Part shown: positions 4,931 through 49,736 of the stretch, one piece after another
How positions within the stretch are numbered: position 1 is the stretch's first letter
How the letters are laid out: each line of letters begins with the position of its first letter
NCBI GenBank assembly: GCA_903893625.1
Contig: CAITND010000104.1
Span: forward strand, 1-56,786
Direction of reading: 5' to 3'
Length of the DNA stretch: 56,786 bases
Source of the DNA: an uncultured Oscillatoriales cyanobacterium
GTDB lineage: Bacteria > Cyanobacteriota > Cyanobacteriia > Cyanobacteriales > Microcoleaceae
Program-made: the position numbers and the translations under genes
The notes under the pieces: model-generated
The model's database searches: none
Told to the model about the DNA's origin: nothing
The model's input: the letters and a program-made list of their open reading frames with translations, nothing else

Positions 4931-6262
4931 TTAATTAGATTTTCCCCCTTTTTCAAGTTCAATAGATGTAGTCTCAAAAGCCATTGTTCTATGATCAATC
5001 ATTTCTAATAACAAGAATGTGCTTAAATAGTATTTAATACTAGGTTGTATAAAAAGCTCAAGAAAACTTGATAATAATATTGTGATCACAAGCCAAATTA
5101 ATAAACCTAGCCAGAAACTCAAAACTGTTCCCTGCCAAGGAAAGTATTTATTCATTAGGATCGCAATCGGCATATGTAATAGATAAAAAGCATAAGAAAT
5201 ACGACCCATAAAAGTCATTTTTTTTAAGCTATTGGCAGGTATATCATATTTAACCAATAGAATTGCAAGTATAGTGAACAAAGATGCTGCTACCCATTTC
5301 GGATCTGGCAAAATATGTCCTTTAAAAATTATCCAACACAGGTGAAAAATAGGGATCAAGAAACAGAGTAAACGCAAATAAATAAAACCATGAAAATAGC
5401 GACGGGTAATTTCACAGATTATTAATATACATATTGGCAGAATTGTTAAGTCAGAAAAATTGACAAAACTAGCAACTGGATTGACAAAAAATAGAGCGTT
5501 TAAAATCGATTTACCTGTCAAAAAATGATTGGTAGCATGAAATAATAAAATATAGCTAATAACAGGGATAAATGCTCCTTTATGGCTAGATGGTTGTACT
5601 TTCAATGATAATAATAGTCCACTCAACCAAAAAATCCATCCCGAGGCATAACCAGAAATAAATTGTGGAAATGAAGGCAGAAACCAGCCAATAATACTGA
5701 TTAGAAAAGCTCCTAAAAATAAATCTAATATTTTAGGTCGCAACCACCAGACCAAGATAAAAACTAAATAATATAGAATTTCGTAATTTAAACTCCATAA
5801 AGCTGCATCACCCGCTATAGGATGTAGTGAAAAAGAAAAGTATTTATCAAAATTTTGCCCAAAAAATAAATTTCCTAAAACTATATTTAATTTTTCATTT
5901 GGTTCAGCCAATACTCCGAAACAAATAGCAATAAAATAAATTGGTAAAATTCTAATGGCTCGGCGTAATATATAATTATGAACCTGCTGAATTGAGAACT
6001 CTTTTGTGGTCGTTAAGCCAATGAAGTAGCCTGAGAGAACAAAAAATAGTAAAACAGCACTATGTGCCGCTTGTAAATAACCAAAATAAATATTGGGATG
6101 GTAGGTAGGGTCTAAAAAGTTTTTCATAAACAAAACATGAGATGATGCCACTGAAAGTGCTGCAAGTCCTCTAATACCCTCTAAATTATAGTCATAGCTT
6201 GAATTCTTTTCTAAAGAGTAATCACTTCCGTTATCAGGCTTCATTTTTGGATTAATTTTCAT
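4931..6262 (-). CDS. Acyltransferase 3 family membrane protein (OafA/YrhL type)
   Basis: A 443-residue integral membrane O-acyltransferase. The N-terminal motif NLEGIRGLAALSV, with the R-G pair, is the family hallmark, followed by SSHVLF with the conserved histidine and about ten hydrophobic segments to the C-terminus. Family members transfer acetyl or succinyl groups to surface polysaccharides, lipids or antibiotics, with the acyl donor on the cytoplasmic face. The tail after the last helix is short and hydrophilic. It is convergent with the preceding glycosyltransferase gene and on the same strand as the methyltransferase and GH13 genes, which suggests a role in decorating a glycan or glycosylated metabolite. 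Confidence 0.9.
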   Translation of the reverse strand: MKINPKMKPDNGSDYSLEKNSSYDYNLEGIRGLAALSVASSHVLFMKNFLDPTYHPNIYFGYLQAAHSAVLLFFVLSGYFIGLTTTKEFSIQQVHNYILRRAIRILPIYFIAICFGVLAEPNEKLNIVLGNLFFGQNFDKYFSFSLHPIAGDAALWSLNYEILYYLVFILVWWLRPKILDLFLGAFLISIIGWFLPSFPQFISGYASGWIFWLSGLLLSLKVQPSSHKGAFIPVISYILLFHATNHFLTGKSILNALFFVNPVASFVNFSDLTILPICILIICEITRRYFHGFIYLRLLCFLIPIFHLCWIIFKGHILPDPKWVAASLFTILAILLVKYDIPANSLKKMTFMGRISYAFYLLHMPIAILMNKYFPWQGTVLSFWLGLLIWLVITILLSSFLELFIQPSIKYYLSTFLLLEMIDHRTMAFETTSIELEKGGKSN

Positions 6263-6329
6263 GAGATTTCACTAAACGCCCATATAGCAATTCCTCAATC
6301 AGTAAGGTACACCATATCGCACCCAACAG

Positions 6330-6347
6330 GGGGCTTAAGTAAGCCCC
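6330..6347. repeat. 8-bp perfect inverted repeat
   Basis: GGGGCTTA and TAAGCCCC face each other around two bases, in the gap between the acyltransferase start and the end of the methyltransferase gene. It could fold in the minus-strand transcript, but no T-run follows, so a terminator role is uncertain. Confidence 0.45.
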
Positions 6348-6391
6348 TCCCTTGTAACTCATTGGCTTAAGAAGTGCTATATTTTACCAGT

Positions 6392-7123
6392 CTAAATCTT
6401 GATCCCAAGACGTACTTCCTTATCAATCCGTGTCAGCATGGGGCCGGGTACTTGCTTAAAATAATCATCCGTTGCTTTGCGCGATCCCGCCCAACAGCCA
6501 TAATCATCAACGATGAGAACACCTCCGGTCGAGAGTCGAGGGTAGAGTTGCTGAAACTCAACGGCGGTGGATTCATACCAATCGGTATCTAAGCGCAAAA
6601 CTGAGATAGTTTCTGGCTTGGTTTTTGGCAATGTTTCGATAACATCTCCTTCAATAAAATTAATTTCAAACTCAAAATTATGTACAGAGAAAGCCGCTTT
6701 AACGTCATCTAATAAAGCGTAACACCAGCCAATGTCATCCCCATACTTCTCCATCATTTCAAAGCCAGTGTTTCCCCGTTTATCCACATCAAATTCGGTG
6801 GGGGTTGGCATACCCTGAAATGTGTCATATAGATATAGTTTGCGATCGCTGATGTTTCTCGCTTTCATAATTAAGGCAGCCAGTAAAGAGCTTCCTCCTC
6901 GCCACACGCCGCATTCTACAATATCACCAGGTATCTCCTGATCAAGTACATAGTTAACTGATGTATAAAGGGCAAAAACAGCCTCTTTACTCGTCATGGT
7001 GTAGGGCATAACCTGTTGATATAAATCCATGAATACGGGATCTTTATCAATATCTGGCGTGACTGGATCTTTCATAGTCACTTGATGTTTGGTCGAGAAA
7101 ACGATTGTGCGTTCAGTATTCAT
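6392..7123 (-). CDS. TylF/MycF-family sugar O-methyltransferase
   Basis: A 243-residue SAM-dependent methyltransferase of the macrocin-O-methyltransferase (TylF/MycF) family, which methylates hydroxyls of sugars in antibiotics and surface glycans in a metal-dependent way. Seen: the SAM-binding segment VECGVWRGGSS (69-79), YDTFQGMPTP (99-108), LRLDTDWYEST (176-186) and VDDYGCW (205-211), whose acidic residues D179/D181 and D206/D207 match the metal and catalytic sites of the family. Its neighbours include two glycosyltransferases and an acyltransferase, which supports a sugar substrate. The acceptor sugar cannot be named. Confidence 0.88.
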   Translation of the reverse strand: MNTERTIVFSTKHQVTMKDPVTPDIDKDPVFMDLYQQVMPYTMTSKEAVFALYTSVNYVLDQEIPGDIVECGVWRGGSSLLAALIMKARNISDRKLYLYDTFQGMPTPTEFDVDKRGNTGFEMMEKYGDDIGWCYALLDDVKAAFSVHNFEFEINFIEGDVIETLPKTKPETISVLRLDTDWYESTAVEFQQLYPRLSTGGVLIVDDYGCWAGSRKATDDYFKQVPGPMLTRIDKEVRLGIKI

Positions 7124-7236
7124 AACAACAGTAAAGTTTAGGAATGATTTGATAAGATAGGGTTGGCAAAGCTTTCGTGATTATACATGATCCAATGGAT
7201 TAATAGATCAACTTTCTCTACTTAGTATTTAGGTGA

Positions 7237-8853
7237 TTACGATTGATAGATACGTTGGACGATCAGACCTTCATTTCCTCGTAGCTCAACATTGTGTCCC
7301 AATTGTCCCCCCTGGCGATCCATGAATGTAGAAAGGAGAACTGTTGACTGGTTACGAAAGTCTATCGGTAATATCCATTCCTGGTATTCAGAACTGAAAT
7401 TCAAAGCCACAACAATATCTGATGTCTCGTTAAAGCGTTGGTAGCAGAAAAGCTGTGGGGGTGAATATAAAGAAAGGTATTCACCAAGTTGTAGGGCGGA
7501 TTGTTGCCGACGTAAGCGTAACAGCGATCGCGTCAGTGCCAGAAATGATCGAGAATTATGCTTCTGTGCATTGACATTAATACTGCTGTAGTCATGGGTG
7601 ATCGGTAGCCAAGGTGTGACTGATTCCTCACAAAAACCCGCATTAGCCGAGTTATCCCAGAGCATCGGAGTGCGTTCGGGATCGCGCCCCACCCCAATAC
7701 CCGGAGCTTTTATTTCCCAAGGATCTTGGATATGCTCGGCGGGAATCCAGCCATCCTCCATGCCCAATTCATCTCCGTAGTAAATCGTTGGTGTACCCCG
7801 AAGAGTAAGCAATAGCATCATGCCGATTTTGGCTTGAGCAAGCCCAATTCTGCTGGCGACGCGATGCTTATCATGATTGCCCAATGACCAATTCGGCCAT
7901 GCACCGACTGGCAGTAATCTCTCGTAACGCTCAACAATTTCTCTGACGGACTCTGCGCTCCATTGACAGTCAGAGGACATCAATTCTGAATTGAGGGGTA
8001 AATGCAGTTCATCATTGGCTCCATAGTGCTTAATAATTTCTTCTAGGGATTTATATAATTCACCAAGCAAAAGACGATCACCATACTGTTCGACAAGCCT
8101 TCGTAGTAGGCGATTAAAATCGTGAATTTCTGGTATATTCTTGCTAAAAACTTCAATTAAGCGATCGGATGGTTCCATGCCGGGATGCCAGTCGGGATTC
8201 ACGGGATTATCTCGAAACTGCAAATCTTTGAAGGCACGATAAGCAGCATCAACTCGGATACCATCTACCCCTCGCTGTAACCAAAAATGGAGGACATCTA
8301 ACATGGCTTGTTTAGCACCAGGACTACGCCAATTCAGATCGGGTTGCTCCTTCAAAAAAGAGTGTAAATAGTATTGTTCTGTTTGTTCATCCCATTCCCA
8401 AGCCGAAAGTCCGTCAAAACGTCCAAGCCAATTATTAGGAAATTCACCGTTTGGCCCTGGATCTTTCCATATATACCAATCTCGCTTGGGATTAGTCCGC
8501 GAACTGCGGGATTCAATAAACCAGGAATGCTGATCAGAAGTATGGGCCGCAACAAAATCAACCAAAATCTTGAGATTGCGATTGCATGAATTTTGTATCA
8601 AGCTATCTATATCTGAAAGGTTGCCGAAGATAGAGTCAACATTTGTATGATCGCTAACATCATAACCAAAATCGGCCATGGGAGAAGGATAGAATGGTGT
8701 CACCCAAAGGGCATCTATCCCCAGCCACTCTAAATAATCGAGTCGCTGGATAATGCCGGGGATATCACCAATCCCGTCCCCATTGGAGTCCTGAAAACTG
8801 CGTAGATAAGTTTGATAAATAACAGAAGGCTTCCACCAAGGAGAATGAGACAT
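7237..8853 (-). CDS. GH13 alpha-glucosidase / alpha-amylase family enzyme
   Basis: A 538-residue glycoside hydrolase family 13 protein of the alpha-glucosidase/oligo-1,6-glucosidase type. All catalytic regions are present: region I DFVAAH (D99, H104), nucleophile D202 in GIRVDAA, acid/base E265 in LLGELY, and D328 in LGNHDKH. The N-terminal WWKPSVIYQTYLRSF matches the usual start of exo-acting alpha-glucosidases. No signal peptide is seen, so it is probably cytoplasmic. It could hydrolyse or transfer glucose among alpha-glucosides such as maltose, sucrose or trehalose-like sugars. Being set among glycosyltransferases, it might also trim or make a glucosylated product. Substrate specificity is not readable by eye. 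Confidence 0.9.
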   Translation of the reverse strand: MSHSPWWKPSVIYQTYLRSFQDSNGDGIGDIPGIIQRLDYLEWLGIDALWVTPFYPSPMADFGYDVSDHTNVDSIFGNLSDIDSLIQNSCNRNLKILVDFVAAHTSDQHSWFIESRSSRTNPKRDWYIWKDPGPNGEFPNNWLGRFDGLSAWEWDEQTEQYYLHSFLKEQPDLNWRSPGAKQAMLDVLHFWLQRGVDGIRVDAAYRAFKDLQFRDNPVNPDWHPGMEPSDRLIEVFSKNIPEIHDFNRLLRRLVEQYGDRLLLGELYKSLEEIIKHYGANDELHLPLNSELMSSDCQWSAESVREIVERYERLLPVGAWPNWSLGNHDKHRVASRIGLAQAKIGMMLLLTLRGTPTIYYGDELGMEDGWIPAEHIQDPWEIKAPGIGVGRDPERTPMLWDNSANAGFCEESVTPWLPITHDYSSINVNAQKHNSRSFLALTRSLLRLRRQQSALQLGEYLSLYSPPQLFCYQRFNETSDIVVALNFSSEYQEWILPIDFRNQSTVLLSTFMDRQGGQLGHNVELRGNEGLIVQRIYQS

Positions 8854-16424: not shown

Positions 16425-17633
16425 TTACAAATCCTCGTCGTCTTCATCTTCCAACTCTTCATCCAAATCAGCCTGTTGAGGAGGAGCATCTTCTGCCTTA
16501 TCTTCACTAATTCGTATCCAAACAGATCCCAAGGGAGAGCGAATAATCCCATGATCGTCACTAATCCAGCCAAAGGTTTCAATGCCTTCAGGTCTGATGA
16601 TACCAACTTTTAAATCTAATTCAATGAGTTCAGCGAGTGAGCGACATCGCCTCTGTCCTAAACGAGTATTACAAGAATGATGTCCCCAAGCAACATTAGA
16701 CGGAATATGTGTGATCTGATCATATACAAGTGGCTCAATATGAAATAGATTTACAATTGTTGAGCGAATAGCTCCCTCAACCTGTCCGGCAGCATTTCCA
16801 GAACTAAGATCATCTTCGTATGTTGCTGAGGCATGAAGCTCTTGATATCCTATGAAGCGAAGGCACAAGGGACAAGTTGATAGACCATGCCTGATTACGC
16901 CTTTGTACTCATAATTAGACACATCAAGTAAATTTTCTTGATGTAAAATTGCTTGTAGATGTTCTGCTTGGGTAGTCACATAAGGACTGCCTACAGTTTG
17001 GGTGATTAACCAAGCTAATACACATTTACAGAGATAATTCGTTTCCTGATCGGCATATTCTGGAGCAAACATTCCTTGTACGGCTCCTTCTTTGCGCTCC
17101 TTCTTACCACCCAACTTTGGAATTCGTAAAACATAATGACCAACATCTCGAACATCTCTACCTCGTTTTTTTGAAGGCTTACCATTTTTTTCGAGATGGC
17201 AAACGCTCCAAGTTTGTAAAGGAGGAAAACTTTCTAATCCTCGATGTGTTCTATATAAAACAAAAGCATTCTGTCCAACAACAATCGAGGATTCTTTCCC
17301 TGTTATAAAGCTTAGTTTTGGAACACCAGCAGATTCAAAATATTGTTCTGGATAGAGGCGAATCACATATCCGTCTTTGTATTCCTGCAAAGGAGCACTT
17401 GACCATCGTTCATAGGGTATTATCACTCGATTACTACGAACGACATGATTTTGATATGCTCCTTTAGCTCCACCGCGAGGAGTCGCAAACCCAGCTTTAT
17501 CTAATTTATTCTTATCCTTCTCCTCCATAAAACTCCAAGCTGAGGTTGGATAAGGATTGTGTTCTCCTGAATGTCCTGAAAATAAGCGACAGCCATCAGT
17601 ACCACAAAGTTTTGGCAGACTCGATAAAATCAT
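16425..17633 (-). CDS. BstXI-like type II restriction endonuclease with HNH-type motif
   Basis: A 402-residue protein that I recognise as resembling the BstXI restriction endonuclease (recognition CCANNNNNNTGG), notably in the N-terminal part with GFATPRGGAKGAYQNHVVRS (49-67). A likely HNH-type metal/nuclease module is seen: CPLC (254-257), NLFHIEPL with H298, and WGHHSCN (316-322) followed by GQRRC. The last 25 residues are very acidic (ending EDEDDEDL), an unusual tail. The gene follows the specificity gene with a 4-bp ATGA overlap and ends the operon. It should cleave unmodified DNA at the site protected by the upstream methyltransferase. The actual site is not known. Confidence 0.8.
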   Translation of the reverse strand: MILSSLPKLCGTDGCRLFSGHSGEHNPYPTSAWSFMEEKDKNKLDKAGFATPRGGAKGAYQNHVVRSNRVIIPYERWSSAPLQEYKDGYVIRLYPEQYFESAGVPKLSFITGKESSIVVGQNAFVLYRTHRGLESFPPLQTWSVCHLEKNGKPSKKRGRDVRDVGHYVLRIPKLGGKKERKEGAVQGMFAPEYADQETNYLCKCVLAWLITQTVGSPYVTTQAEHLQAILHQENLLDVSNYEYKGVIRHGLSTCPLCLRFIGYQELHASATYEDDLSSGNAAGQVEGAIRSTIVNLFHIEPLVYDQITHIPSNVAWGHHSCNTRLGQRRCRSLAELIELDLKVGIIRPEGIETFGWISDDHGIIRSPLGSVWIRISEDKAEDAPPQQADLDEELEDEDDEDL

Positions 17634-18346
17634 ATTAAAACCTCTGTAAATCTAGCGGAAACCTTTGAAACATCTAACTCACCAGATAAAAGCTTTGGCA
17701 AGATAGCATCTCGAATCATACGCAGTCTGCGGTTTTGTTCCTGCATCCTGATCATCTGTTCAGGCGTAGTCATAGACTGCTCAAGGGGAAGCCCAAGCAG
17801 TGAAACATATTGTATAGCACTAATAACACTCAGAATAGCGTCTTGCTCTTCTAAAGTAGGAACTGCAAGATGTAACTCAAACAAATCTGATTTATATAAT
17901 TCTGGATAAGTTGAGCCATTAGCGATCATATTCAAGTAGACTTTATTGGCTTTAAACCAATAAGCTAAGTAAAGAGGTCGCAGTTTAGAACCACACTGAA
18001 AATTCAGAAACCCTTGATTAGTTGACATGGGAACTGCATTGATAGCAACAGCACCAACCGGAGCGCGTTTTGTTAACATTACTGTCCCCGTTGGTAACAG
18101 TTTTGCTGCACTACTCGTTAGTCCTTTCGGTGTAATTTTTCTTTCGGTGTCAGAAACGTAGATTGTATCTATAAAATTGGTTATTTCTTTTGGAGTTAAC
18201 CAAGGAGTTTCACCATCCCAATTTTCTTCATTCTTAGTGCTAGGTGTGCCTCCGCTATCAACATGGGTTATTAATTCACTTTCTAGGTTTGGTTCCAGAG
18301 TAGTATGCAGCCAATGACTAGGACATTTTAGAAGAGGTTCAGCCAT
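17630..18346 (-). CDS. Half-size HsdS-like specificity subunit (single target-recognition domain)
   Basis: A 238-residue HsdS-family protein. Ordinary type I HsdS proteins are about twice this long with two target-recognition domains; this one has one such domain (about residues 20-165) and one coiled-coil conserved region (about 165-228: [14 protein letters not shown], later [14 protein letters not shown]). Family knowledge says single-domain S subunits work as dimers and read palindromic split sites. It overlaps the methyltransferase gene by 8 bp and the endonuclease gene by 4 bp, so it is translated as part of one operon. It is expected to guide the HsdM-like methyltransferase, as described for the BstXI system. 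Confidence 0.88.
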
Positions 18347-19934
18347 GCAACAATTCCTTAAGAACTTTAAAAGCAGAATTAGACGCTTTTGTGATTTCGT
18401 TCAGACGAGTTTCTACATCAGCAAGCTCTGATTGAAGTCGCTCAATATCCCAATGTTTGGTTAATTCCTCGTCAAAGCCGACATATCTTCCAGGAATTAA
18501 TGACATTTTATGGGAACGGATCTCTTTTAAGGTTGTAGATCTACAAAAACCAGGAATATCCCTGTAATGATTAAAAGTTTCTCTACTACGCCAATCTTGA
18601 TAAGTTTTGGCAATTCTTGATATTTCAGCATCGGTAAGAATGCAGTGGGTTCTATCAACCATTTCACCAAAAGAGTAGGCATAAATAAAAAGCGTTTGAT
18701 CTTTACGATCCCGGAATCTAGTGTCTTGTTTATTACCAGCAATAAACCATAAAGTTGCAGCAATTTGTGTTGTATAAAAAAGTTGATTTGGTAAAGCAAC
18801 AATACAATCAATTAAATCAGCTTCAATTAAAGTCTCTCGGATTGTACCGTCTCCTTGACTGTGATTCAAGGCTCCATTAGACAATACGAAACCTGCTACT
18901 CCATCTGGAGCAAGATGAGAAACCATCTGTTGTACCCAGGCAAAGTTAGCATTATTAATCGGGGGAGTACCGTATTGCCAACGTGGATCTTGTCTCAGAT
19001 GTTCACCTCCCCAATCGCTCATATTAAATGGAGGATTAGCTAGAATGTAGTCGGCTTTAAGATTGGGATGTAAATCGTTATGAAAGGTATCTGCGTGATG
19101 CGAACCTATATTTCCTTGAATTCTTCGCAAGGCTAAATTCATTTTGCACAAACGCCATGTCGTAGGATTAGATTCTTGACCATATATTGAAAGATCCTGA
19201 GATTGACCTCCATGAGCTTCTACAAATTTTTCGGACTGCACAAACATTCCTCCTGAACCACAACAGGGATCATAAACACACCCTTTATAAGGCTGAATCA
19301 TTTCAACCAAAAGTTTTACCACTGATTGTGGTGTATAGAATTCACCTCCTTTAGCTTCTGCACAAGCAAATCGCCCTAAAAAATACTCATAAACTCTTCC
19401 TAAGATATCTCTGGAACGACTTTCTGTATCACCTAAACCAATGGTTTCAACTAATTCAACTAGCTCACCTAAACGTCGTTGATCAAGGGAAGAACGAGAA
19501 TAATCTTGGGGTAAAATATTTTTTAACGATGGATTTTCCTGCTCAATTAATAGCATTGCTGAATCGATAATTTTACCAATCTCAGGATTTTTAGAATTAG
19601 CTTTTATATACGACCAGCGAGCTTCTTTTGGAACCCAGAATAAATGTTTGGCTAAATACTGCTGTTTATCTTCAAGAACTTGATAGCGTCCTCTTTGCTC
19701 ACTAACATACAAGTTGTTAGATGGAGTCGCTGTCCACAATTCCAACTGATGATAATGTTCTTCAAAACCATCTGAAATGTATTTTAGAAAGATTAACCCT
19801 AGTACAATATGCTTATACTCAGCAGAATCCATTTGACCACGCAATTTGTCAGCCGTAGCCCATAGTTTCTCCTCAAATCCTAAATTTCCCCTATTACTAT
19901 GCTGCCCATTAATATTTTTTCTGGTACGAGCCAC
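18339..19934 (-). CDS. HsdM-like N6-adenine DNA methyltransferase
   Basis: About 531 residues of a type I-style modification subunit (gamma-class adenine methyltransferase). Seen: the N-terminal HsdM helical domain, [19 protein letters not shown] motif [13 protein letters not shown], and catalytic motif [15 protein letters not shown]. The open frame begins at a GTG at 19943, but the GTG at 19934 has AAGGTGG five bases upstream, so it is preferred. It is the first gene of a tight operon with the specificity and nuclease genes and no HsdR. The methyltransferase with its S partner would protect the host genome from the BstXI-like enzyme. Confidence 0.92.
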
Positions 19935-28286: not shown

Positions 28287-30920
28287 CTAAACTTCTGAGG
28301 CATTTGTAACAACATCAAAATCTAAATTTAGCACATCGAAATGCTGCTGACCACAATGAATTTTTGCGCCTTCACCCCTTCGCAATTTTAGCTGATCTTT
28401 GGTGGCTTTGGTTTCTCGAATTAGGTAGAGTTTTTGTTCATCTTCCGAAACTTGTTTTACGATCGCCCAGTCTGGGTTGTAAGTACCGACAGGGGTTTGG
28501 ACTTTGAACCAGGGGGGCAGTTTGATAAAGAGTTTGATGTCTTCCCGTCCATCTAAAATCTCAGCAAACTGTTTCTCTGTTTCAGATTGATATTCAATTG
28601 CATCATAAATTGAGCGATTTACCGATAACATATTGTCAATGAAACCTGCTAGTTCATGGTCTTCAAACAAGCGCATCTCGTATTCTTCTCCAGCAATCTT
28701 TTCATATTTGATGCCACTAACCATCAGTTGTTGCATTGTGATGCGAATTGTCCGTGTTGCCAAATCAAGAAATTGTTGAGGGTTAACGAAGATATCTGAT
28801 AACCGACCAGACTTTGACAAAATACTAAATAACGTTCCTCTTGTTAATTCGGTTTCTCGTTGTAAGTAGCTAATTAAATCGGGAATGGTAGAAACTCGAA
28901 ATTCTGTTTTACTGCTAGTGACTGACAATAGTTGAGAAGTAAGACCTGTATTCGTATAGCTTAGAGCAACTTTTTCTAAGCGAATCTGAGGTGCTGTAAT
29001 TGGAGGCATTTTTTTGATCTCTTCAGCCGCATCATCGATCAATTTTGGCGTGTCATAATCAACTGAGTAGCGAGTTTTGTGCTTAATGCGTTCCCAAAGT
29101 TCCAGAAAATATGTATTTTCTCGCCACTTGGGAATTAATTTTGCTGTTTGGCGATCGCGATTATTCTTGATCCGTCCTTCAAACTTCACACCACAATCTT
29201 CTTCAATTTCTGTCTGTAAAGCACGGGCAAAATCCGCATAGCTTTCATTGGCAATAACAGTTAAGCGATTAATCGTAGGATCGAATACACGAATGCCTGT
29301 TGCATCGACAGGTAAACGCAAACCTCGTCCGATCGTTTGTCGTCTTTCAACTTTTGATTGCACTTCGCGTAACATACAAATTTGAAAGACATTTGGATTA
29401 TCCCAACCTTCCCTTAATGCCGAATGGCTAAAAATAAAACGTAAAGGTTCAGTTGGCGAAAGTAACCGCTCTTTCTCTTGCATAATTAATTTATATGCTT
29501 CATCATCTGCCGCTGTTGCACCATTTGTATCTTTTGCCACCTTTTTATCTTCAGCAAAGTAACCCTTATGAACAACATCAACAAATGGTAAATTAAGAGT
29601 TTGATAACGCGGTAGTTGAGAAAATTCTTGATAAATCTCAATGAACCATTGACGCAGTTTGCCATCCGCAGGAGCATAGTTAGCTACACGATCGATAAAA
29701 AATAGGGAAATAACTTTAAGTGGGCGATCGGGAATTTGTCTCTTAACAGCTAGTTCTTTGTCTAAATGCTCTTTAATCGTTTCTCTGATTTGTGCTTTCA
29801 TCAAATCATCGCCATAATTGCCGATTGTTTCTCCAATATTGAGGCTGACTCCATTGGTAAAAGAAATATACCCAAATCCTGCATCAATACAATCGACAAT
29901 ATAGCCTTTGTAAAGTTCTCGACCCCCCGACAATTCGTAAAGATCCACCCCATTTTTACTCACCGATACGCTGGTACGAGTAATAGAATTTTGCTTTTGT
30001 ACGTCGATCGTTAATTTAGCTGTGATTTTTGTTTTTGTTGCTTTGATAGACTCTAAATGAACATAAGGCTGATTAAAACTATTCTCTTCCAGAGCCGATG
30101 TAACCGTGATTTGCTTAACGAGTTTCATATCATAAGCTTTCACCGGATCAAGTTTATACACTAGGTTGTATAAATTCTTATGAGTAGCAGAATAGCGTAA
30201 GGCACAGAGGGGATTTAGGCTGGCGATCGCCTCTTTTGATTTATCTGATTCCATGTTCTGTGGTTCATCAAGGATGACAATTGGATTAGTTGCTTGAATA
30301 AACTCAATCGGGCGATGCCCAGATAAACCATCCAGTTCTTTATGAATTATGCTAATGTCTTTTTTATTGAAAGCATCAATATTAATCACCAGAATTTGTA
30401 ATTGATTAGAATTGGCAAATTGCCGCAAATTTGAGACTCGTTTGGAATTATAAACCCAGGAATCAAACGGTTGATTACCATAGAGATATTGAAAGTGTTC
30501 TTTGGTAATTTTTAAAGTATTGAGAACGCCTTCTCGAATCGGTACACCAGGAACTACAATGATGAACTTAGTAAAACCATACCGTGCATTTAATTCATGG
30601 ATGGTACGGAGATAAACATAGGTTTTTCCCGTCCCTGTTTCCATTTCAACAGAAAAATTCATGCTATGTTGAAGGGGTTTCTCTTCTCCTGTTTCTACAG
30701 GTTCAATCTCATTGCGTTCTTGAATTGTTTGAACGTTTACCAAAATTTCTTCAGGGGATAATTCTAGCTGGTTGCCAAATCCCATCTCAGTCATGGCTCC
30801 ACCAAAACCAAGAGCCAAATCAAATTGCCCTTGTGCTAACGGTTGACCATCAAATACATCAACAACGGCGTTAATGGCATCGAGTTGATATTGCTGTTGA
30901 CTATCAAATTGAATCTTCAT
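28287..30920 (-). CDS. res: Type III restriction subunit Res
   Basis: An 877-residue Res subunit. The helicase part has Walker A METGTGKT (93-100), the DExH-type box ILDEPQN, the motif VI-like region RRQTIGRGLRLP, and the motif III-like SATH. The C-terminus carries the nuclease motif: NPDWAIV followed by YLIRETKAT, giving PD...ExK. It needs Mod to recognise DNA, then uses ATP to slide and cut when two head-to-head sites are unmethylated. Its start codon overlaps the mod stop (ATGA), so the two are coupled. No frameshift or stop is seen, so the enzyme looks intact. Confidence 0.95.
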   Translation of the reverse strand: MKIQFDSQQQYQLDAINAVVDVFDGQPLAQGQFDLALGFGGAMTEMGFGNQLELSPEEILVNVQTIQERNEIEPVETGEEKPLQHSMNFSVEMETGTGKTYVYLRTIHELNARYGFTKFIIVVPGVPIREGVLNTLKITKEHFQYLYGNQPFDSWVYNSKRVSNLRQFANSNQLQILVINIDAFNKKDISIIHKELDGLSGHRPIEFIQATNPIVILDEPQNMESDKSKEAIASLNPLCALRYSATHKNLYNLVYKLDPVKAYDMKLVKQITVTSALEENSFNQPYVHLESIKATKTKITAKLTIDVQKQNSITRTSVSVSKNGVDLYELSGGRELYKGYIVDCIDAGFGYISFTNGVSLNIGETIGNYGDDLMKAQIRETIKEHLDKELAVKRQIPDRPLKVISLFFIDRVANYAPADGKLRQWFIEIYQEFSQLPRYQTLNLPFVDVVHKGYFAEDKKVAKDTNGATAADDEAYKLIMQEKERLLSPTEPLRFIFSHSALREGWDNPNVFQICMLREVQSKVERRQTIGRGLRLPVDATGIRVFDPTINRLTVIANESYADFARALQTEIEEDCGVKFEGRIKNNRDRQTAKLIPKWRENTYFLELWERIKHKTRYSVDYDTPKLIDDAAEEIKKMPPITAPQIRLEKVALSYTNTGLTSQLLSVTSSKTEFRVSTIPDLISYLQRETELTRGTLFSILSKSGRLSDIFVNPQQFLDLATRTIRITMQQLMVSGIKYEKIAGEEYEMRLFEDHELAGFIDNMLSVNRSIYDAIEYQSETEKQFAEILDGREDIKLFIKLPPWFKVQTPVGTYNPDWAIVKQVSEDEQKLYLIRETKATKDQLKLRRGEGAKIHCGQQHFDVLNLDFDVVTNASEV

Positions 30921-32809
30921 ACTGTGCGGAATTTAATATCGTGGTCACGCATTTGTAGCTGGGTATTTGTTTTTAGCTGGTCATTACCTCGGAAGGAAGA
31001 ATCGAGGCTAATGAATTGCTTAGGTTTGGGTTGATAATTAAGAATTTGCCGAATCGTATCTTCTAATATCTCATATTCCAGACAAATAAATAACTTCTCG
31101 TCATCAATCGCATAAAATTCCTGTCCGGCTATATCTAATTTTTCAATTTTTGCTGTTAATGGGAATCCAGCTTTGAGCAAGATTTCATAAAGCATTCCCA
31201 GTTTAGTTGCACCGGGAAGAATATTGTCTGCAAACTCTTCGAGCATTAAACTTAATTGTTCGGCATTCTGGGGTGCAGTGCCATCCCAAATCTTAAAGTT
31301 ACTTTCGGTGAGTTTGAAGACTTTGAAGCCTCGGTCTTGTTGTCCTGATCCGTTGAGATCCAGTTTGCCGTTTTCTTCTTCATTGATTTTACTAATTGAT
31401 CGCTTGATACGTTCCTGACTGATCTCCGAAACCTTATTATATCCAGCTTTTCTTGCTTCGGAATTTTCTGGGGTTTGTTCTGGCAATTGAATACAAATAA
31501 AATTTCTGTTGTTTCCTTCTTCTTGGTTCAGTTCCATCAATGCTTGTGCAGTTGTACAAGAACCTGCAAAAAAATCCAGCACAATATCATCAGTGCTAGT
31601 TGTACCAATAGAGATCAGATGTTTAATAAGAGCAATAGGTTTTGGAAAATCATAAATTTTCAGATCATTAAATAAAGCCTTGACTTCTTTAGAACCATCA
31701 GCAGTTGCCCCCACATCTGTTAACCAAGTTCTAAATGGCTTAAATCTAGGATCTACAGAGCGAATTTTTTCATAAACAATATAATTGCCATCAGAACGCT
31801 TGACGAACTCCGCATCTTCTCGTTCAACTATATCAAACATCTTTTTCTTGCCTAATCGCCAACGGCCTTCTGTCCCATCATTGCGAATTGGGTATACTTC
31901 TTCACCATTTGGCCCTGGAATAGGAAAAAACATTGTTGGTCTATCTTCACGGCGAGAGTTAGAACCCCATTTATTAAGTTCACGTCCAAGTCGGTAAGCA
32001 CCCTTTTTATCTTCTCGATTTAGATCTTCTGATTCAATCTGAACTTTCGATAGAGATTGAGCGTCACTGATTTTACCATAGCAAACTACATATTCTTGAT
32101 CGTTAACAACTCCAGATGTATCACTTCCACCTCCTTTTTTTGATTGCCATACAAAAGTTCCTATAAAATTTTCTTGACCAAAAATTTCATTCATAACAAG
32201 TCTTAAGTTATCTATTTCCCGATCGTCTATGCTTACGAAAATTATCCCTTCCTTACATAGAATATTTCGTGCTAAAAATAAACGAGGATACATCATATTC
32301 AGCCACTTAGAATGAAACCGCCCATCGGTTTCTGTATTCGTCGTTAGCTTGATTCCCTCACCGTTTTTCTGCCCCGAATAACGCAAATAATCCTCTAATC
32401 CTTCCCGAAAATTATCAGGATAAATAAACTCCTTCCCGGTGTTGTAAGGAGGATCGATATAAATCATTTTGATCTGGTTGTAATAGCTCTTTTGCAACAG
32501 CTTCAAAACTTCCAGATTGTCACCTTCAATAAAAATATTCTCCGTTATATCAAAATTAACCGATTCCTCCGGTATAGGGGTCAATGTCCCAACGCTTTGC
32601 GCTTGCGAATTGCGAATTGCTTCACTTTTTCCTGCCCAAGATAGCCCGTAGCGTTCCCGCCCTTCATCAACAGATTCTCCTAACGTCTGCTTTAGCCGAT
32701 CAAAATCAACCTTGCCCTCAGTAAACACCTCTGGAAATAATTCTCGCAGGGCTGCAAGTCTTTCTGCCAGAACATCTTGAGAAGTCAACGGTAGTTTGTC
32801 TTTAGTCAT
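30917..32809 (-). CDS. mod: Type III DNA methyltransferase Mod
   Basis: A 630-residue beta-class adenine methyltransferase that gives the type III system its sequence specificity. Catalytic motif IV is IYIDPPYNTG (DPPY at 119-122), and SAM motif I comes later as VLDFFAGSCTTAQAL, in the beta order. The central part between the two motifs (about 190-390) is the variable target-recognition region and looks complete. No simple repeat tract that would allow phase variation is seen near the start codon. It is the promoter-proximal gene of the mod-res pair. The recognition sequence cannot be predicted by eye. Confidence 0.95.
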   Translation of the reverse strand: MTKDKLPLTSQDVLAERLAALRELFPEVFTEGKVDFDRLKQTLGESVDEGRERYGLSWAGKSEAIRNSQAQSVGTLTPIPEESVNFDITENIFIEGDNLEVLKLLQKSYYNQIKMIYIDPPYNTGKEFIYPDNFREGLEDYLRYSGQKNGEGIKLTTNTETDGRFHSKWLNMMYPRLFLARNILCKEGIIFVSIDDREIDNLRLVMNEIFGQENFIGTFVWQSKKGGGSDTSGVVNDQEYVVCYGKISDAQSLSKVQIESEDLNREDKKGAYRLGRELNKWGSNSRREDRPTMFFPIPGPNGEEVYPIRNDGTEGRWRLGKKKMFDIVEREDAEFVKRSDGNYIVYEKIRSVDPRFKPFRTWLTDVGATADGSKEVKALFNDLKIYDFPKPIALIKHLISIGTTSTDDIVLDFFAGSCTTAQALMELNQEEGNNRNFICIQLPEQTPENSEARKAGYNKVSEISQERIKRSISKINEEENGKLDLNGSGQQDRGFKVFKLTESNFKIWDGTAPQNAEQLSLMLEEFADNILPGATKLGMLYEILLKAGFPLTAKIEKLDIAGQEFYAIDDEKLFICLEYEILEDTIRQILNYQPKPKQFISLDSSFRGNDQLKTNTQLQMRDHDIKFRTV

Positions 32810-44938: not shown

Positions 44939-45187
44939 ATGAAAACTTCCGTTACGAATTTAACGACTGACTTGCTAAACCGCATTACTCAAACTCCAGG
45001 TCAATGTGGTGGTCGTCCCTGTATTCGAGGGATGCGAATTCGAGTCACCGATATTTTAGAAATGTTGGCGGAAAATGTTAGCGTTACTGAAATTTTAGAA
45101 GACTTCCCTGATTTGGAATTAGCAGATATTCAAGCTTGTCTGCTATTTGCCGCACGACGCACTGATTTTCCTAGACTAACAGCATGA
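44939..45187 (+). CDS. DUF433 antitoxin-like protein
   Basis: An 82-residue DUF433 protein, with TPGQCGGRPCIRGMRIRV and ILEDFPDLELADIQACLLFA. DUF433 proteins have a helix-turn-helix fold and are usually encoded just before a PIN-like DUF5615 protein, where they are presumed antitoxins. Here the stop overlaps the next start (ATGA), as expected for such a pair. It probably also represses its own operon; an operator is not assigned. Confidence 0.92.
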   Translation: MKTSVTNLTTDLLNRITQTPGQCGGRPCIRGMRIRVTDILEMLAENVSVTEILEDFPDLELADIQACLLFAARRTDFPRLTA

Positions 45188-45522
45188 AGATTTGGATCGA
45201 TGCTCAACTGCCGCCCACACTGGCAAATTGGCTAACAGAAACCTTTGGGTTAGAAGCAAGTGCATTGCGAGATTTGAGACTTCGGGATGCTCAAGATATG
45301 GAAATTTTTGAAGCGGCACGAGCCGAAAATGTTGTGATTATGACGAAAGACAGTGACTTCATCGACTTGGTATGTCGCTTAGGATCGCCACCTCAAATTT
45401 TGTGGCTAACTTGTGGCAATGTCACTAACCGCAACTTGCGACAATTGTTGACTGCTACTTTGCCTGATGCGTTAGAGCAATTGCGCCAAGGAGAAATGAT
45501 TGTGGAAATTAGCAACCGTTAG
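45184..45522 (+). CDS. DUF5615 PIN-like toxin
   Basis: A 112-residue PIN-like protein of the DUF5615 group. Acidic active-site residues are visible: D6 in IWIDAQLPP, the DAQDMEIFEAAR segment, and TKDSDF. PIN proteins are usually RNases. Coupled to the DUF433 gene by a 4-bp overlap, it forms a presumed type II toxin-antitoxin pair. Both genes are full length and look functional. The RNA target is unknown. Confidence 0.9.
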   Translation: MKIWIDAQLPPTLANWLTETFGLEASALRDLRLRDAQDMEIFEAARAENVVIMTKDSDFIDLVCRLGSPPQILWLTCGNVTNRNLRQLLTATLPDALEQLRQGEMIVEISNR

Positions 45523-45547
45523 TGATTAAAAGACATATTGGTGAGTC

Positions 45548-45611
45548 AGAAACCGGGTTTCTTTCAAAATCTCTGACTTTTTGCCAAAACTGTCTCAGAA
45601 ACCCGGTTTCT
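45548..45611. repeat. Two palindromic 15-mers AGAAACC-S-GGTTTCT
   Basis: One copy with G and one with C at the centre, 34 bases apart, follow the toxin gene; the same element occurs at 39704. The two copies can also pair with each other to make a larger stem. The remaining 140 bases up to the VapC remnant hold nothing I can identify; in particular no antitoxin frame. Confidence 0.7.
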
Positions 45612-45754
45612 CAAGTCTCTGCTATGCTATAATTCAATCAAGTTATAAATTGTAAATAATTAATCAAGACAATAAAAACGTAATTTACTAGATTTAAGCG
45701 GACAAATTCAATTTTCGACTGACTACGACTACAAAGCCTTGCGGTCAAACCGAA

Positions 45755-46054
45755 ATGTTTCTGATTGATACTTCTGTTTGGATCAGTGTTTTCCGCGACA
45801 AGACAGGTGCAGTACGTCAATCCCTCGAAGCAATTATTAACAATGAAAGCATCTTTTTGAGCCGATTTACTCAGATGGAACTTTTGCAAGGTTGTCGAGA
45901 CGATCGCGAGTGGACGCTATTAGAAACTTATCTTCAAGATCAAGACTATATCGAGGCAACTGCCGATACTTGGGTTATTGATGCAGTTACTAGAAATAGA
46001 ACAGAAGCAAACTCAAACGTGCCTACTAAAAGGATGAAAAAATATGAGCATTAG
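45755..46054 (+). pseudogene. Truncated VapC-type PIN toxin
   Basis: The first 75 or so residues match a VapC PIN ribonuclease: MFLIDTSVWISVFRD with the first active-site aspartate, and RFTQMELLQGCRDDREW with the glutamate. After ATADTWVIDAV the frame no longer looks like the family; the expected C-terminal part with its aspartates (about 55 residues) is replaced by unrelated RNRTEANSNVPTKR and a stop. No antitoxin gene precedes it. It is therefore judged a deletion remnant, fused by chance to the leader of the next toxin-antitoxin module. Confidence 0.7.
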
Positions 46055-46283
46055 ATCTTTTCAAGAAATTATAGATTCTGTTGAGAAACTCTCTCTTGAC
46101 GATCAAGATTATTTGTTTGAGCTAATCAAAAAAAGAAGAATTGAAAAGCGACGTTTAGAGATTGCTGCCAATGCTAAAGCTACTTTAGAGTCTTTAAAAC
46201 AAGGAACAGCAAAAAAAGGAAGTGTGAATGATTTAATTGCTGATTTATGGGATGATAAAGACGATGAAAATAGTTTGGGATAA
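46044..46283 (+). CDS. Small antitoxin-like protein
   Basis: A 79-residue protein, helical and charged, with SIRSFQEIIDSVEKLSLDDQDYLFELI followed by KKRRIEKRRLEIAANAKATLE. This resembles the short antitoxins that precede RelE/YoeB-like toxins in cyanobacteria. An AAAAGG ribosome binding site lies just upstream, and its 3' end overlaps the start of the toxin frame by 20 bases. It looks full length, although its toxin is cut. Confidence 0.65.
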   Translation: MSIRSFQEIIDSVEKLSLDDQDYLFELIKKRRIEKRRLEIAANAKATLESLKQGTAKKGSVNDLIADLWDDKDDENSLG

Positions 46284-46464
46284 TCGCTTTAAACGGGCTT
46301 TTAGAAAACTTATAAAGAAGAATCCTGAAATGAGCGACAGGATTATTAATGTGCTTAATTTGTTAAGTATTGATCCTCTTACTCCCTCATTAAAATTAAT
46401 TACAGAAAATTTCTGTATCAAACAAGCTCCCCTGCAAAGGTTTACTAATCTGAGTGTTAAGTAA
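46264..46464 (+). pseudogene. RelE/YoeB-like toxin, C-terminally truncated
   Basis: Starting at ATG 46264, the first 44 residues (MKIVWDNRFKRAFRKLIKKN, then RIINVLNLLSIDPLTPSLKL) fit a RelE-superfamily mRNA interferase. At SLKL, where family members continue with a conserved H-x-L-G-x-L and the catalytic strands, the sequence switches to the complement of the 3' end of the neighbouring DNA methyltransferase gene. The last 22 residues are thus not toxin. The break marks the left boundary of the inserted R-M block. Confidence 0.75.
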
Positions 46465-48690
46465 GTTTAGAGATAGATCGCAGTAATGTTGATGTAGCTC
46501 GATATTAATAGATGCACGAGATTCTCTAGCAGCAACCCTACCCGTAGTCATACTCCCTGCAAAGGGATCTAGTATGATTTCTTCAGATGGCACAATGGAA
46601 AAAAGAAGCTTGGGAAGTGCTTCAGGAAATGGAGCACTATGACCATAAATATTTTTACCTCCAACCATTTTCGTTACAGGTTTTTCTTGAATAACTTTAG
46701 GCAGTTTAGATAGCTCGAAGGCTGGATAACCTTTTGAAAAAATTAATATGTGTTCCCAACAATTTAAAGGAGTCTGATAATAAGGAGAGTTATTACCTTG
46801 ATTGAAATTTCTGTGCCCCTCAATTTCTCCCTTATCCCATGCAATATTTCCTAAATGGGTAAAACCAATATGCCTAAAAATAAAGCTAATATAGCTACTT
46901 AAAATCAGTCTTTTTTTACCCATATCCGAAAAAACTATAATATTTTCATTATCAAAGTAGTCAAATATATTAAATAAGTATGGTGCTCCATGCTTTAAAC
47001 ATCTAAAAACCTCCTTTGATATGTTGTACATATCATACAAATAGCAATAAATATTAGACCACTGAGAATATTCTCTGGCATTATAATATGGAGGAGATGT
47101 TATTGCACCTCCTATAGATTCACTTTTTAATTGGTGAAGCACTTGAAAAGCATCTCCTTGATATAAAGTCACCCCTGGAACTTTGGATAGATTTGAAATT
47201 AAACATTGTTTTTCATGCTCTCGAATACAGATAAACCGCTTAAAGAATGAAAGTTCTCTATATTTTTTTGCAAGCTTATTATCTATTATTTTGTGTATAA
47301 AACCTAAATTTTTGTATTTTATATTTCTTCCAATACTGTTATTATTGAGGTTTTCTTGCTTAGAATAAATGACTACAGTATCACCATATAATGAATAAGA
47401 TTTTATTAAGAATAAAAAAATATCGGCAATTGAATAAGTTTTTACTATATCTCTTCTCCATTTTTTTAAAATATCCTTTTGAATTATGTTTCTATCGTCT
47501 AGGATAGCTTGTTGTCTGATAATAGAAGCCAGAGAATAACGCTTTCCTCTATTGTATTTACTCTTGTCGCCACAAAACAGATTTTTACACTCAAAACTTC
47601 TGACACCAAGTACAGGGTAGGAATTACCTTGAACATTAAATGTTCTACACTTAGGGCAAGGAATCAGAGTCTCATCCCGTTCATTCTTTTCAAAAAGAAG
47701 AACACTTTTTTCTTGCTGATCTACATACACAAGATAACAGTCTTTATAGGTAAATCCCTCATTACCATTCTGAAAATTACAGTTTTTTTGGTCTAAATTC
47801 TTGATATAATCTATGGTTTGACGCTCTACTTCCTGCCATCTGAAGTATGTGCGATCAATGGGTCTTTCTAAAAATTTTTCACAAAAAATTGTGATATCTG
47901 CAATTAAGCTCCATTTGCAGGAAAATTTATCTCCTATAATTATTGCTAAATAACAATGATTTGTTAATTCGTCATAAATTTTAGTAATTTGATCAATTAA
48001 TTGACTTAGAAGTCGATCATAATCCTGGAGTTCATCAAAAAGATTATCGACATCAATTATTGAAAGTCCCTGTTCTCTAGCCACTTGCTTACTATGGAAA
48101 TATTTAAGATGTTCCCAATAGTTTTCAAAATATCGCTCTTGACAATTTTTATTAACAGCTTTATGAACAGTATCTTCAGAGAAACAATAGTAAATATATG
48201 AACAAAAAACAGATGCAATTATATCATTGATGTGTTTTTCTTTTTCTTGCGCTTTTAATAATTTGTCTAAGTCCATAAAATTTCTATTTTTTTTTGTTTC
48301 AATTTCTCTTGCTAAAATTAAAAAATATTCCAGATTTTTATGGGACTGAAAAATATCAGAAACCCATTCCTTGAAATTAATTTCAGGACGATTGATGGCT
48401 TCTCCTATCTCTAATTTTTGATGATAGTTAAATATTTCTCCTTTCTTGACTGCTTGATCAATAAAATATCGATATACCTTTCTGTTCAATTCCAGTCTTT
48501 CATTGATGACAAAAATTAAGGATTGTTTTATATGGTTGACATCACAAATATCTTTTAGAGAAAAGAAAACTAAGTATTCTTCTAGTGCCTGTAGCATATC
48601 CTCAGACGGTTTCCAGCTAGTCAAAGTCCATTCTTGGAAATTCGCAATTAATTTATTGACCAGCACTTTTCTTTCCATTTCAGTTGACAT
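46396..48690 (-). CDS. Large beta-class DNA methyltransferase with zinc-finger N-terminal region
   Basis: A 764-residue DNA methyltransferase. The catalytic domain is C-terminal (about 505-764) in beta order: catalytic motif IV AITSPPYYNARE (TSPPY at 531-535, a form common in N4-cytosine enzymes), then ILDPFAGSMTTGRVAA and INIELHQHYCD. The first 500 residues match nothing I know; they are helical and AT-rich in coding, and contain a likely zinc site (C345, C348, C368, C373). That long extension may read the DNA sequence. The gene is divergent from the XRE and HNH genes. Methylated base and site are unknown; N4-cytosine is an inference. Confidence 0.85.
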   Translation of the reverse strand: MSTEMERKVLVNKLIANFQEWTLTSWKPSEDMLQALEEYLVFFSLKDICDVNHIKQSLIFVINERLELNRKVYRYFIDQAVKKGEIFNYHQKLEIGEAINRPEINFKEWVSDIFQSHKNLEYFLILAREIETKKNRNFMDLDKLLKAQEKEKHINDIIASVFCSYIYYCFSEDTVHKAVNKNCQERYFENYWEHLKYFHSKQVAREQGLSIIDVDNLFDELQDYDRLLSQLIDQITKIYDELTNHCYLAIIIGDKFSCKWSLIADITIFCEKFLERPIDRTYFRWQEVERQTIDYIKNLDQKNCNFQNGNEGFTYKDCYLVYVDQQEKSVLLFEKNERDETLIPCPKCRTFNVQGNSYPVLGVRSFECKNLFCGDKSKYNRGKRYSLASIIRQQAILDDRNIIQKDILKKWRRDIVKTYSIADIFLFLIKSYSLYGDTVVIYSKQENLNNNSIGRNIKYKNLGFIHKIIDNKLAKKYRELSFFKRFICIREHEKQCLISNLSKVPGVTLYQGDAFQVLHQLKSESIGGAITSPPYYNAREYSQWSNIYCYLYDMYNISKEVFRCLKHGAPYLFNIFDYFDNENIIVFSDMGKKRLILSSYISFIFRHIGFTHLGNIAWDKGEIEGHRNFNQGNNSPYYQTPLNCWEHILIFSKGYPAFELSKLPKVIQEKPVTKMVGGKNIYGHSAPFPEALPKLLFSIVPSEEIILDPFAGSMTTGRVAARESRASINIELHQHYCDLSLNLLNTQISKPLQGSLFDTEIFCN

Positions 48691-48838
48691 AACATTTATC
48701 CTTACTGACAGAATTGAAACCTTTACTCTGCAAAGCTTTTATCGCTTTACTGCATCTTCATTACTTTTTATGCTATTTTCGCATATTTTGGCTGTCATGT
48801 CAAGGTTATATTGAACACTGCCTCAATGTCAATTTCGC
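48691..48838. promoter_or_regulatory. Divergent promoter region of the methyltransferase and XRE/HNH genes
   Basis: A 148-bp AT-rich gap that must hold both promoters. An imperfect palindrome ATGC-N7-GCAT lies at 48770-48784, and its half TTCGCAT recurs directly at the XRE start (48834-48840). These are possible operator half-sites for the XRE protein, which in R-M systems often controls both directions. Assignment is tentative. The XRE gene lacks a ribosome binding site and may be read from a leaderless transcript. Confidence 0.35.
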
Positions 48839-49165
48839 ATGACTCCATCAGATCGGTCAGATCGGCGTAGTAGATCAAATGACTGCAACATAAACACCGA
48901 GAGAAATAAAGGACACCCAAAGACCATCTTTCGAGATGAATATCTTCAATTGCTTGGCATTTTAAGGAGTGCGCGGGAGAAACGGAGACTTTCTCAAGCC
49001 GAGCTTGGGATGCTAGTTGGTCAAGATCAAACGTTTGTCTCCAAATATGAAAATGGTGTGCGACGGCTCGATTTTTTGGAGACTCTGGATATTTGTAGGA
49101 CACTCGAAATTGACATTCACATTCTCATAGAGGAATTAGAAAATGGAAATCGGTCAATACCCTGA
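48839..49165 (+). CDS. XRE-family helix-turn-helix regulator (controller-like)
   Basis: A 108-residue protein with a C-terminal-half XRE domain: ILRSAREKRRLSQAELGMLV, VGQDQTFVSKYENGVRRLD and LDICRTLEIDI. The first 35 residues are basic and low in predicted structure, unlike typical controller proteins of about 80 residues, so the true start may be further in, but no other in-frame ATG exists. It overlaps the HNH gene by 23 bases. In type II R-M systems a controller in this place represses the methyltransferase and times nuclease production; here that role is inferred from position. Confidence 0.8.
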   Translation: MTPSDRSDRRSRSNDCNINTERNKGHPKTIFRDEYLQLLGILRSAREKRRLSQAELGMLVGQDQTFVSKYENGVRRLDFLETLDICRTLEIDIHILIEELENGNRSIP

Positions 49166-49736
49166 CGATAGCAAAAATTGGTCAGATGAGAATTGGTGTA
49201 ACTTCCTAAATGATTTGATTAATAGCGGTTTAATTTCACAAAAAGAAGTCTGTTCCCTAGTTTTGGGTCATCTAAATCCTTCACAAGTCGGTACATCTAT
49301 AGCGTGTAAAAAAACTTTTCAAAGTCAATATCCGAAGCGAAAATGCTGGGAGGCTGTAAGAAAGTGGCACTTTGATCAAAGTGGCAAGTGTGTAGATTGT
49401 GGGACAAGACTTGGACTTCAAGCTGATCACATTATACCTAGACAAGAGCTAGGGGACAGTGCTGATAATCTTGAAAATATGACTCTACGTTGTAGGCGAT
49501 GTAATGTTATACGTCGTCCTTCTCATGAACAGGGTGGATTAACAGATTTGACGGCAGAAGCTGCACTAATGTGGTTACTTTTTACTAAGCAACCTTCTAC
49601 CTATCAAGAGTTTAAAGATTTATGTAGAAACTATGGTCTGACTATGGCGGATATAAGATTTCAGGAAGCTTGGGCAATGGCTAAATGGCTGGAAAGAGAA
49701 GAAAAGTATTGTATTAGTGATGACTCCCGATATTAG
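49143..49736 (+). CDS. HNH endonuclease, probable type II restriction enzyme
   Basis: A 197-residue HNH nuclease. Seen: zinc-binding CVDCG (C83, C86), the catalytic ADHIIPR (D95, H96), NLENM with the central asparagine, and CRRCN (C117, C120). The N-terminal 65 residues and the C-terminal helical part (TYQEFKDLCRNYGLTMADIR) could carry dimerisation or DNA recognition. It starts inside the XRE gene, so the two are co-translated. Together with the divergent methyltransferase it makes a plausible type II R-M system; other HNH nuclease roles are possible. Confidence 0.85.
   Translation: MEIGQYPDDSKNWSDENWCNFLNDLINSGLISQKEVCSLVLGHLNPSQVGTSIACKKTFQSQYPKRKCWEAVRKWHFDQSGKCVDCGTRLGLQADHIIPRQELGDSADNLENMTLRCRRCNVIRRPSHEQGGLTDLTAEAALMWLLFTKQPSTYQEFKDLCRNYGLTMADIRFQEAWAMAKWLEREEKYCISDDSRY

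Follow-up and report, generated by a model that had tools for sequence, protein, structure and literature searches.

The window analysed here is a stretch of 56,786 nucleotides from an uncultured Oscillatoriales cyanobacterium (contig CAITND010000104.1). At positions 46396-49736 it carries three genes, for a methyltransferase (M), a controller (C) and an HNH nuclease (R), which by layout and parts form a C-controlled type II restriction-modification (R-M) system. Quite probably these genes make up one system in which M is a single-chain reader-writer enzyme, one half recognising DNA and the other methylating it. The linkage of the genes, the operator, the relocation of the target recognition domain (TRD) of M, the emptiness of the slot left behind and the loss of motifs around the TRD were all established by computation and carry this reading. 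It is reasonably likely that complementary losses left M with a dead half bearing the TRD and an active half without one, and that this one-chain enzyme is served by an HNH family and by a C operator of a non-GACT kind.

A conserved three-gene module

The M gene (46396-48690, minus strand) encodes a long-form beta-class amino methyltransferase of 764 amino acids (aa), identified by its open frame, by PADLOC and by Pfam (N6_N4_Mtase, 76.8 bits, cut-off 26.7). Divergent from it across a gap of 148 bp (48691-48838) lies C (48839-49165, plus strand), an open frame for an XRE-type controller of 108 aa (HTH_3, 35.2 bits, cut-off 23). It is followed by R (49143-49736, plus strand), whose product is an HNH nuclease of 197 aa (PF01844, 30.3 bits, cut-off 21.4). 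The frames of C and R share 23 bp, and all three genes are open in the window. The earlier note on this DNA had placed the three genes here, with a TSPPY motif in M and a co-translated XRE/HNH pair across 148 bp, and had recognised the classic type II layout of a controller overlapping a nuclease gene and divergent from a methyltransferase; both descriptions hold. A small XRE gene upstream of R, overlapping or abutting it and divergent from M, is found in the window, in G153 and in 15 of 18 relatives.

These relatives come from a pattern-based, non-exhaustive scan of one genome per bacterial or archaeal species, which matched 59 stretches and gave 19 loci. The 18 loci with a full-length M were counted, and the nineteenth (L039), matching residues 684-760 only, was dropped. 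The proteins share 37-59% identity with M and belong to Bacteroidota, Pseudomonadota, clostridia, Gastranaerophilales and Nostoc. Conserved linkage had been set beforehand as a refuting test, and it was found: an HNH gene adjoins M in 17 of the 18, and an XRE gene lies between the two in 15. R shares 44-75% identity with its 17 relatives. Among 386 genomes of the window's phylum, where only the best candidates per genome were scored (E <=1e-15 for R, <=1e-40 for M), R occurs in two and M in the same two, the window's own included. Separate methyltransferase and endonuclease genes are in this way kept as a pair, as in type II systems, restriction by R being presumed. The module goes beyond a chance association, as the same genes, with their operator, turn up again in phyla far apart.

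The HNH motif region of R (49389-49505, plus strand) holds C83, C86, H96, N112, C117, C120 and N121, seven residues invariant in 18 aligned proteins, so that an HNH domain with a four-cysteine site accompanies the Pfam match. A C-terminal extension marks a subgroup of 378-409 aa (L022, L030, L031, L037, L038) and the viral L059 (371 aa). Compared by sequence, no solved HNH restriction enzyme matched R at E <=1, the one row being IscB at 0.65; the best PADLOC restriction-enzyme profile reached E 0.0091, and a VIA-align search with the model of the HNH protein gave no clear match. We presume R to be the restriction endonuclease of the set.

The HNH protein might instead be a modification-dependent nuclease, a homing-type nuclease or a suicide effector, found with M and C by chance. 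We regard this as improbable. HNH domains do serve many systems; phage HNH families match R (best 1.4e-10) and PtuB matches it weakly (3.7e-4), and the viral contig L058 carries an HNH gene (5959-6531) with no M of this family within the 12.5 kb examined. Such an accompaniment by chance sits poorly with an HNH gene at 17 of 18 M loci in two distinct gene layouts, and with C overlapping or abutting R, the classic arrangement of C.R operons, wherever the spacing was measured (the window, G153 and 14 of 15 relatives, L036 left out). The second layout is that of L027 and L037, in which R is convergent with M and downstream of it and there is no C. The same arrangement occurs in L059, where nothing better than a weak XRE match (E 2.5e-4) lies beside R; for this reason L059 was not counted among the relatives without C. 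One locus weighs against the linkage: L025, from a Thiodictyon metagenome-assembled genome, has a long-form M (5788-8286) with neither an HNH nor an XRE gene within 6 kb on either side.

So rare and scattered an occurrence of the system suggests horizontal transfer. Around two other hosts, the family to which PADLOC assigns M turned up in 1 of 299 and 1 of 296 genomes, each time in the centre genome itself, and in none of 14 control genomes. Plasmid and phage proteins (35 and 17 records) offered no place covering 80% of M. The congener G009 holds a broken copy of M, in pieces that correspond to window positions 46387-47204, 47618-47816 and 48456-48807; its gene neighbourhood differs, and no match to R or C was found in the 12 kb examined. 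A copy decaying in this manner is what would lead one to take the window's locus for a remnant too, which seems most improbable given its three open frames, family-invariant residues, operator and -35 box.

The recognition domain and its surroundings

The C-terminal half of M contains a catalytic domain that looks active (46438-47175, minus strand, residues 506-751), with motif IV, TSPPY (47086-47100, minus strand, residues 531-535), and motif I, DPFAGS (46552-46569, minus strand, residues 708-713). The motifs follow the beta-class order, IV-VIII and then X and I-III. The standard position of the TRD in this class is the slot between motif VIII and motif X (PMC4490356). In M this slot between the catalytic halves (46687-46731, minus strand) is empty: all 19 long forms compared have just 15-17 residues there, and the homologue of the TRD is N-terminal instead. 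Counts over 19 long forms leave aside L061, a long form in another genetic code.

The key to the architecture of M (METHYLTRANSFERASE) came from profile matches on viral contigs. Seven short beta-class methyltransferases of 308-472 aa (L063, L064, L065, L066, L067, L070 and L074) were found there, six of them distinct; L067 is identical to L066, and the profile comparisons on the reader half were made without it. On all seven, matches to the hidden Markov model of M run through residues ~499-660, then 335-422, then 668-753, so the four-cysteine domain of these enzymes follows motif VIII and precedes motif X. A Staphylococcus phage enzyme resembles the short forms and is 50.3% identical to L066. 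In M the domain (47428-47679, minus strand, residues ~338-421) ends ~85 residues ahead of the catalytic half. Its profile match between long and short forms is strong, scoring 156.9 where shuffles reach at most 18.8. C345, C348, C368 and C373 do not vary among the 19 aligned long forms, and all four are likewise invariant in a TRD alignment of 18 rows drawn from 12 of the 19 long and 6 of the 7 short forms. The relocation of the TRD to the N-terminal side is thus well supported by profile comparison, and we hold it to be very probable. Zinc binding by the four cysteines would fit such a site. Compared by sequence with solved structures, the profile of the TRD had a single weak hit (E 0.078) and no convincing match, and one TRD searched against plasmids had no match.

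The N-terminal region of roughly 500 residues described in the earlier note therefore has to be divided. Its four-cysteine site stands, within a domain of only ~85 residues, and much of the rest resembles a degenerate methyltransferase core. The note's inference, of a complete R-M system whose specificity comes from this extension, is supported: a TRD homologue is there and the canonical slot is empty, yet in place of one large recognition domain there appears to be a TRD inside an apparently dead core, preceded by ~200 mostly helical residues. This leading stretch (48091-48690, minus strand, residues 1-200) is mostly helical in the secondary structure of an AlphaFold 2 model and has only Pfam rows below cut-off. 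Recognition by loops of the catalytic half, with the N-terminal region a mere accessory to an ordinary type II system, could be imagined because some small beta-class enzymes make do with short TRDs; we find it very unlikely, since in the short relatives the homologous cysteine domain fills the very slot that in M is reduced to 15-17 residues.

What surrounds the TRD is probably a dead copy of the methyltransferase core, an origin that has less support than the relocation itself. Ahead of the TRD lies a putative degenerate first half of a second core, corresponding to the motif IV-VIII side and without SPPY (47680-48075, minus strand, residues ~206-337). Behind it is a candidate remnant of the motif X/I half, with neither GHxAPFP nor DPFxGS (47305-47427, minus strand, residues ~422-462). 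Compared with the short forms, the half before the TRD scores 29.2 and the half after it 33.8, values reached by none of 100 shuffles each (maxima 21.7 and 17.1). For residues 60-200, taken as a control, the score against the methyltransferase core is 12.5, which 24 of 100 shuffles reach. No pattern for motif IV (SPPY-type) or motif I (DxFxGS-type) was found in the reader half of any of the 19 long forms, and the motif X stretch GHxAPFP is gone from it in alignments judged by eye. A pseudo-methyltransferase fold of this half would agree with the AlphaFold 2 model of M (pLDDT 83.5, pTM 0.85), in which the elements at 209-335 and 415-460 are ordered as those of 528-653 and 666-731.

The alternative is that the TRD alone moved N-terminally onto an unrelated scaffold, with no duplication and no dead methyltransferase half. 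The profile of residues 195-500 scores 234.0 against the short forms, and this similarity is dominated by the TRD (164.4). With the TRD kept and both flanks column-shuffled, the mean is 183.2 (sd 2.3) and 0 of 60 trials reach 234.0. Replacing flanks by real-protein decoys gives 206.4-206.8 for the region before the TRD, 212.0-212.7 for the region after it and 184.1 for both, the overall range with reversed or real decoys being 182-213. Each flank, in its proper order, thus raises the score above that of real decoys (by ~27 and ~22), which, together with the order of secondary structure elements in the model, makes the move of a lone TRD unlikely. Alignments by blastp that run from the region before the TRD into it agree with a second core; they involve 9 of 19 long forms in 18 rows (13 once the duplicate L067 is removed), with E between 1e-21 and 3e-12.

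Three results count against the dead copy. For 10 of the 19 long forms no blastp alignment of this type passes through the region before the TRD. The flanks of the reader half have no match to M's own catalytic domain in profile comparison, 76 and 25 of 100 shuffles reaching the scores, as the move of a lone TRD would have it. The 50 matches listed by VIA-align for the model of whole M against solved structures fall on ~476-756, the catalytic half.

A further long form of 827 aa is encoded at 5242-7725 of the viral contig L061 (IMGVR_UViG_3300022851_000031) and on its twin L062. This contig appears to read TGA as glycine, as in code 25; 23 codons of the M frame are read otherwise than by table 11. 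Genes for GTP cyclohydrolase I, PTPS (QueD-like) and QueC and an intein-bearing radical-SAM gene lie near it.

Operator and control region

Between C and M lies a conserved pseudo-palindrome, TATGCTATTTTCGCATA (48769-48785, plus strand), a putative binding site for the C protein. The pattern TATKCKAWTTTSGMATA is found upstream of C in all 17 C-M regions at <=2 mismatches (the window, G153 and 15 relatives): 13 exact, three with one mismatch and one with two. Each of the 16 loci that carry it with one mismatch or none has no other site, over its full length, that fits equally well. At <=2 mismatches it was found neither in the relatives without C (L025, L027, L037) nor in L059; L061 has one operator-like site at two mismatches, ~5 kb from M. 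The window's operator is the only exact copy in the 5.8-Mb genome, where a search at <=1 mismatch finds 2 sites for this pattern and 5 for a control pattern.

A candidate -35 box of the M promoter, TTGACA (48798-48803, minus strand), lies 12 bp from the operator, with a matching candidate -10 inside it. This arrangement is present on the M strand in all three intact cyanobacterial-type loci examined for it (the window, L026 and L045), and the broken congener copy has TTAACA in place of TTGACA. The operator overlaps the candidate M promoter, so control of the system by C through this site is likely. The arrangement would suit repression of M by C, as known from other C-controlled systems, and activation by C may be expected too.

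Some caution comes from the counts themselves. The 17 of 17 is partly circular, because the pattern was read from those same sequences; the uniqueness of the site within its loci and its absence from the relatives without C are less so. In the window the operator is the sole match at <=2 mismatches, and shuffles give a mean of 0.67, so this is near chance. The promoter scan by itself does not rise above shuffles (2 found, mean 1.2). Folded as one strand, the operator hairpin is unremarkable (z -1.23).

Relation to known systems

PvuII and Esp1396I are C-controlled type II R-M systems with a small XRE gene overlapping or abutting R, a divergent M and an operator between, and the window's layout is like theirs. 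It differs from that type in its HNH nuclease, in its M, a long form of 764 aa, and in its operator. Classes of operator other than the GACT/AGTC C-box exist, and the classical core is absent from TATGCTATTTTCGCATA. GACT/AGTC is described as the core of the C-box (PMC5282649).

The earlier note could not name the system. M itself is not new, since PADLOC already lists its family among the type II methyltransferases (MTase_II, PDLC03236); its best stretch covers residues 328-741 in order (E 1.5e-89), a second stretch also passes the cut, and all 12 relatives' genomes searched contain the family. PDLC03236 is, for its part, a database label that comes with no described architecture or specificity. 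In the open-licence literature searched, no description was found of the move of the TRD, of the reader half that appears dead, of the operator or of the HNH family that partners M.

Several enzymes offer partial likenesses. R resembles KpnI, Hpy99I and PacI, HNH type II enzymes, in having an HNH motif with a CxxC...CxxC site (PMC4081073). MhoVII M1-M2 also fuses two methyltransferases within one type II system, with the difference that both its halves are active, on complementary motifs (PMC12898733). Kinship with BstXI was considered and rejected, M.BstXI being itself type I-like (PMC4335341). A truncated M whose slot lacks a TRD lies beside a BstXI-family nuclease on the 2305-bp Staphylococcus saprophyticus plasmid record NZ_CP054439.1 (L141). 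That record may be an assembly fragment; the pairing indicates that a long-form-like M may pair with another nuclease.

Another likeness is to the Mod2 dimer of EcoP15I, a beta-class enzyme in which one copy reads DNA with its TRD and the other methylates (PMC4490356). M would share this division between reader and writer in covalent form. EcoP15I has two Mod subunits and a helicase subunit; in M the copies would be fused and specialised, and no Res helicase-nuclease adjoins M, whose neighbours are C-R and a toxin-antitoxin-like cluster. Mammalian METTL3-METTL14, with METTL14 non-catalytic, is encoded by two genes and targets RNA adenine, and we know of no TRD of M's kind in it. In this beta-class pair, recognition is ascribed to one member and methylation to the other (PMC4490356).

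The cluster beside the 3' end of M (44939-46464, plus strand) comprises a DUF433-DUF5615 pair, a PIN-domain open reading frame and two small ones without a Pfam match, looking like a toxin-antitoxin cluster. The window carries two further R-M sets. One is a type III set of Res and Mod (28287-32809, minus strand). The other forms one block (16425-19832, minus strand) of a type I-like methyltransferase, a short specificity protein of 238 aa and a gene whose product is matched by a type II restriction enzyme of PADLOC (8.8e-131).

As we picture the system, M would methylate host DNA at its recognition site and R would cut the unmethylated site. C would bind the conserved operator, switching its own C-R operon and repressing M, whose candidate promoter overlaps that site. 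M would descend from a beta-class methyltransferase carrying a zinc-type TRD, through duplication or through fusion with a relative. Of the two copies, the N-terminal one would then have kept the TRD and lost the S-adenosylmethionine-binding and catalytic motifs (IV, X and I), and the C-terminal copy would have kept catalysis and lost the TRD. The reader half would position the writer half on DNA in cis.

If true, M would be a prokaryotic covalent counterpart of the EcoP15I Mod2 dimer and of METTL3-METTL14, and a symmetric beta-class dimer could evolve into specialised reader and writer halves. A rare family of presumed HNH restriction enzymes and a putative zinc-type TRD family would be added to those known. 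The division of labour proposed for EcoP15I and METTL3-METTL14 would become directly testable in bacteria, on a single polypeptide where recognition and catalysis can be mutated independently.

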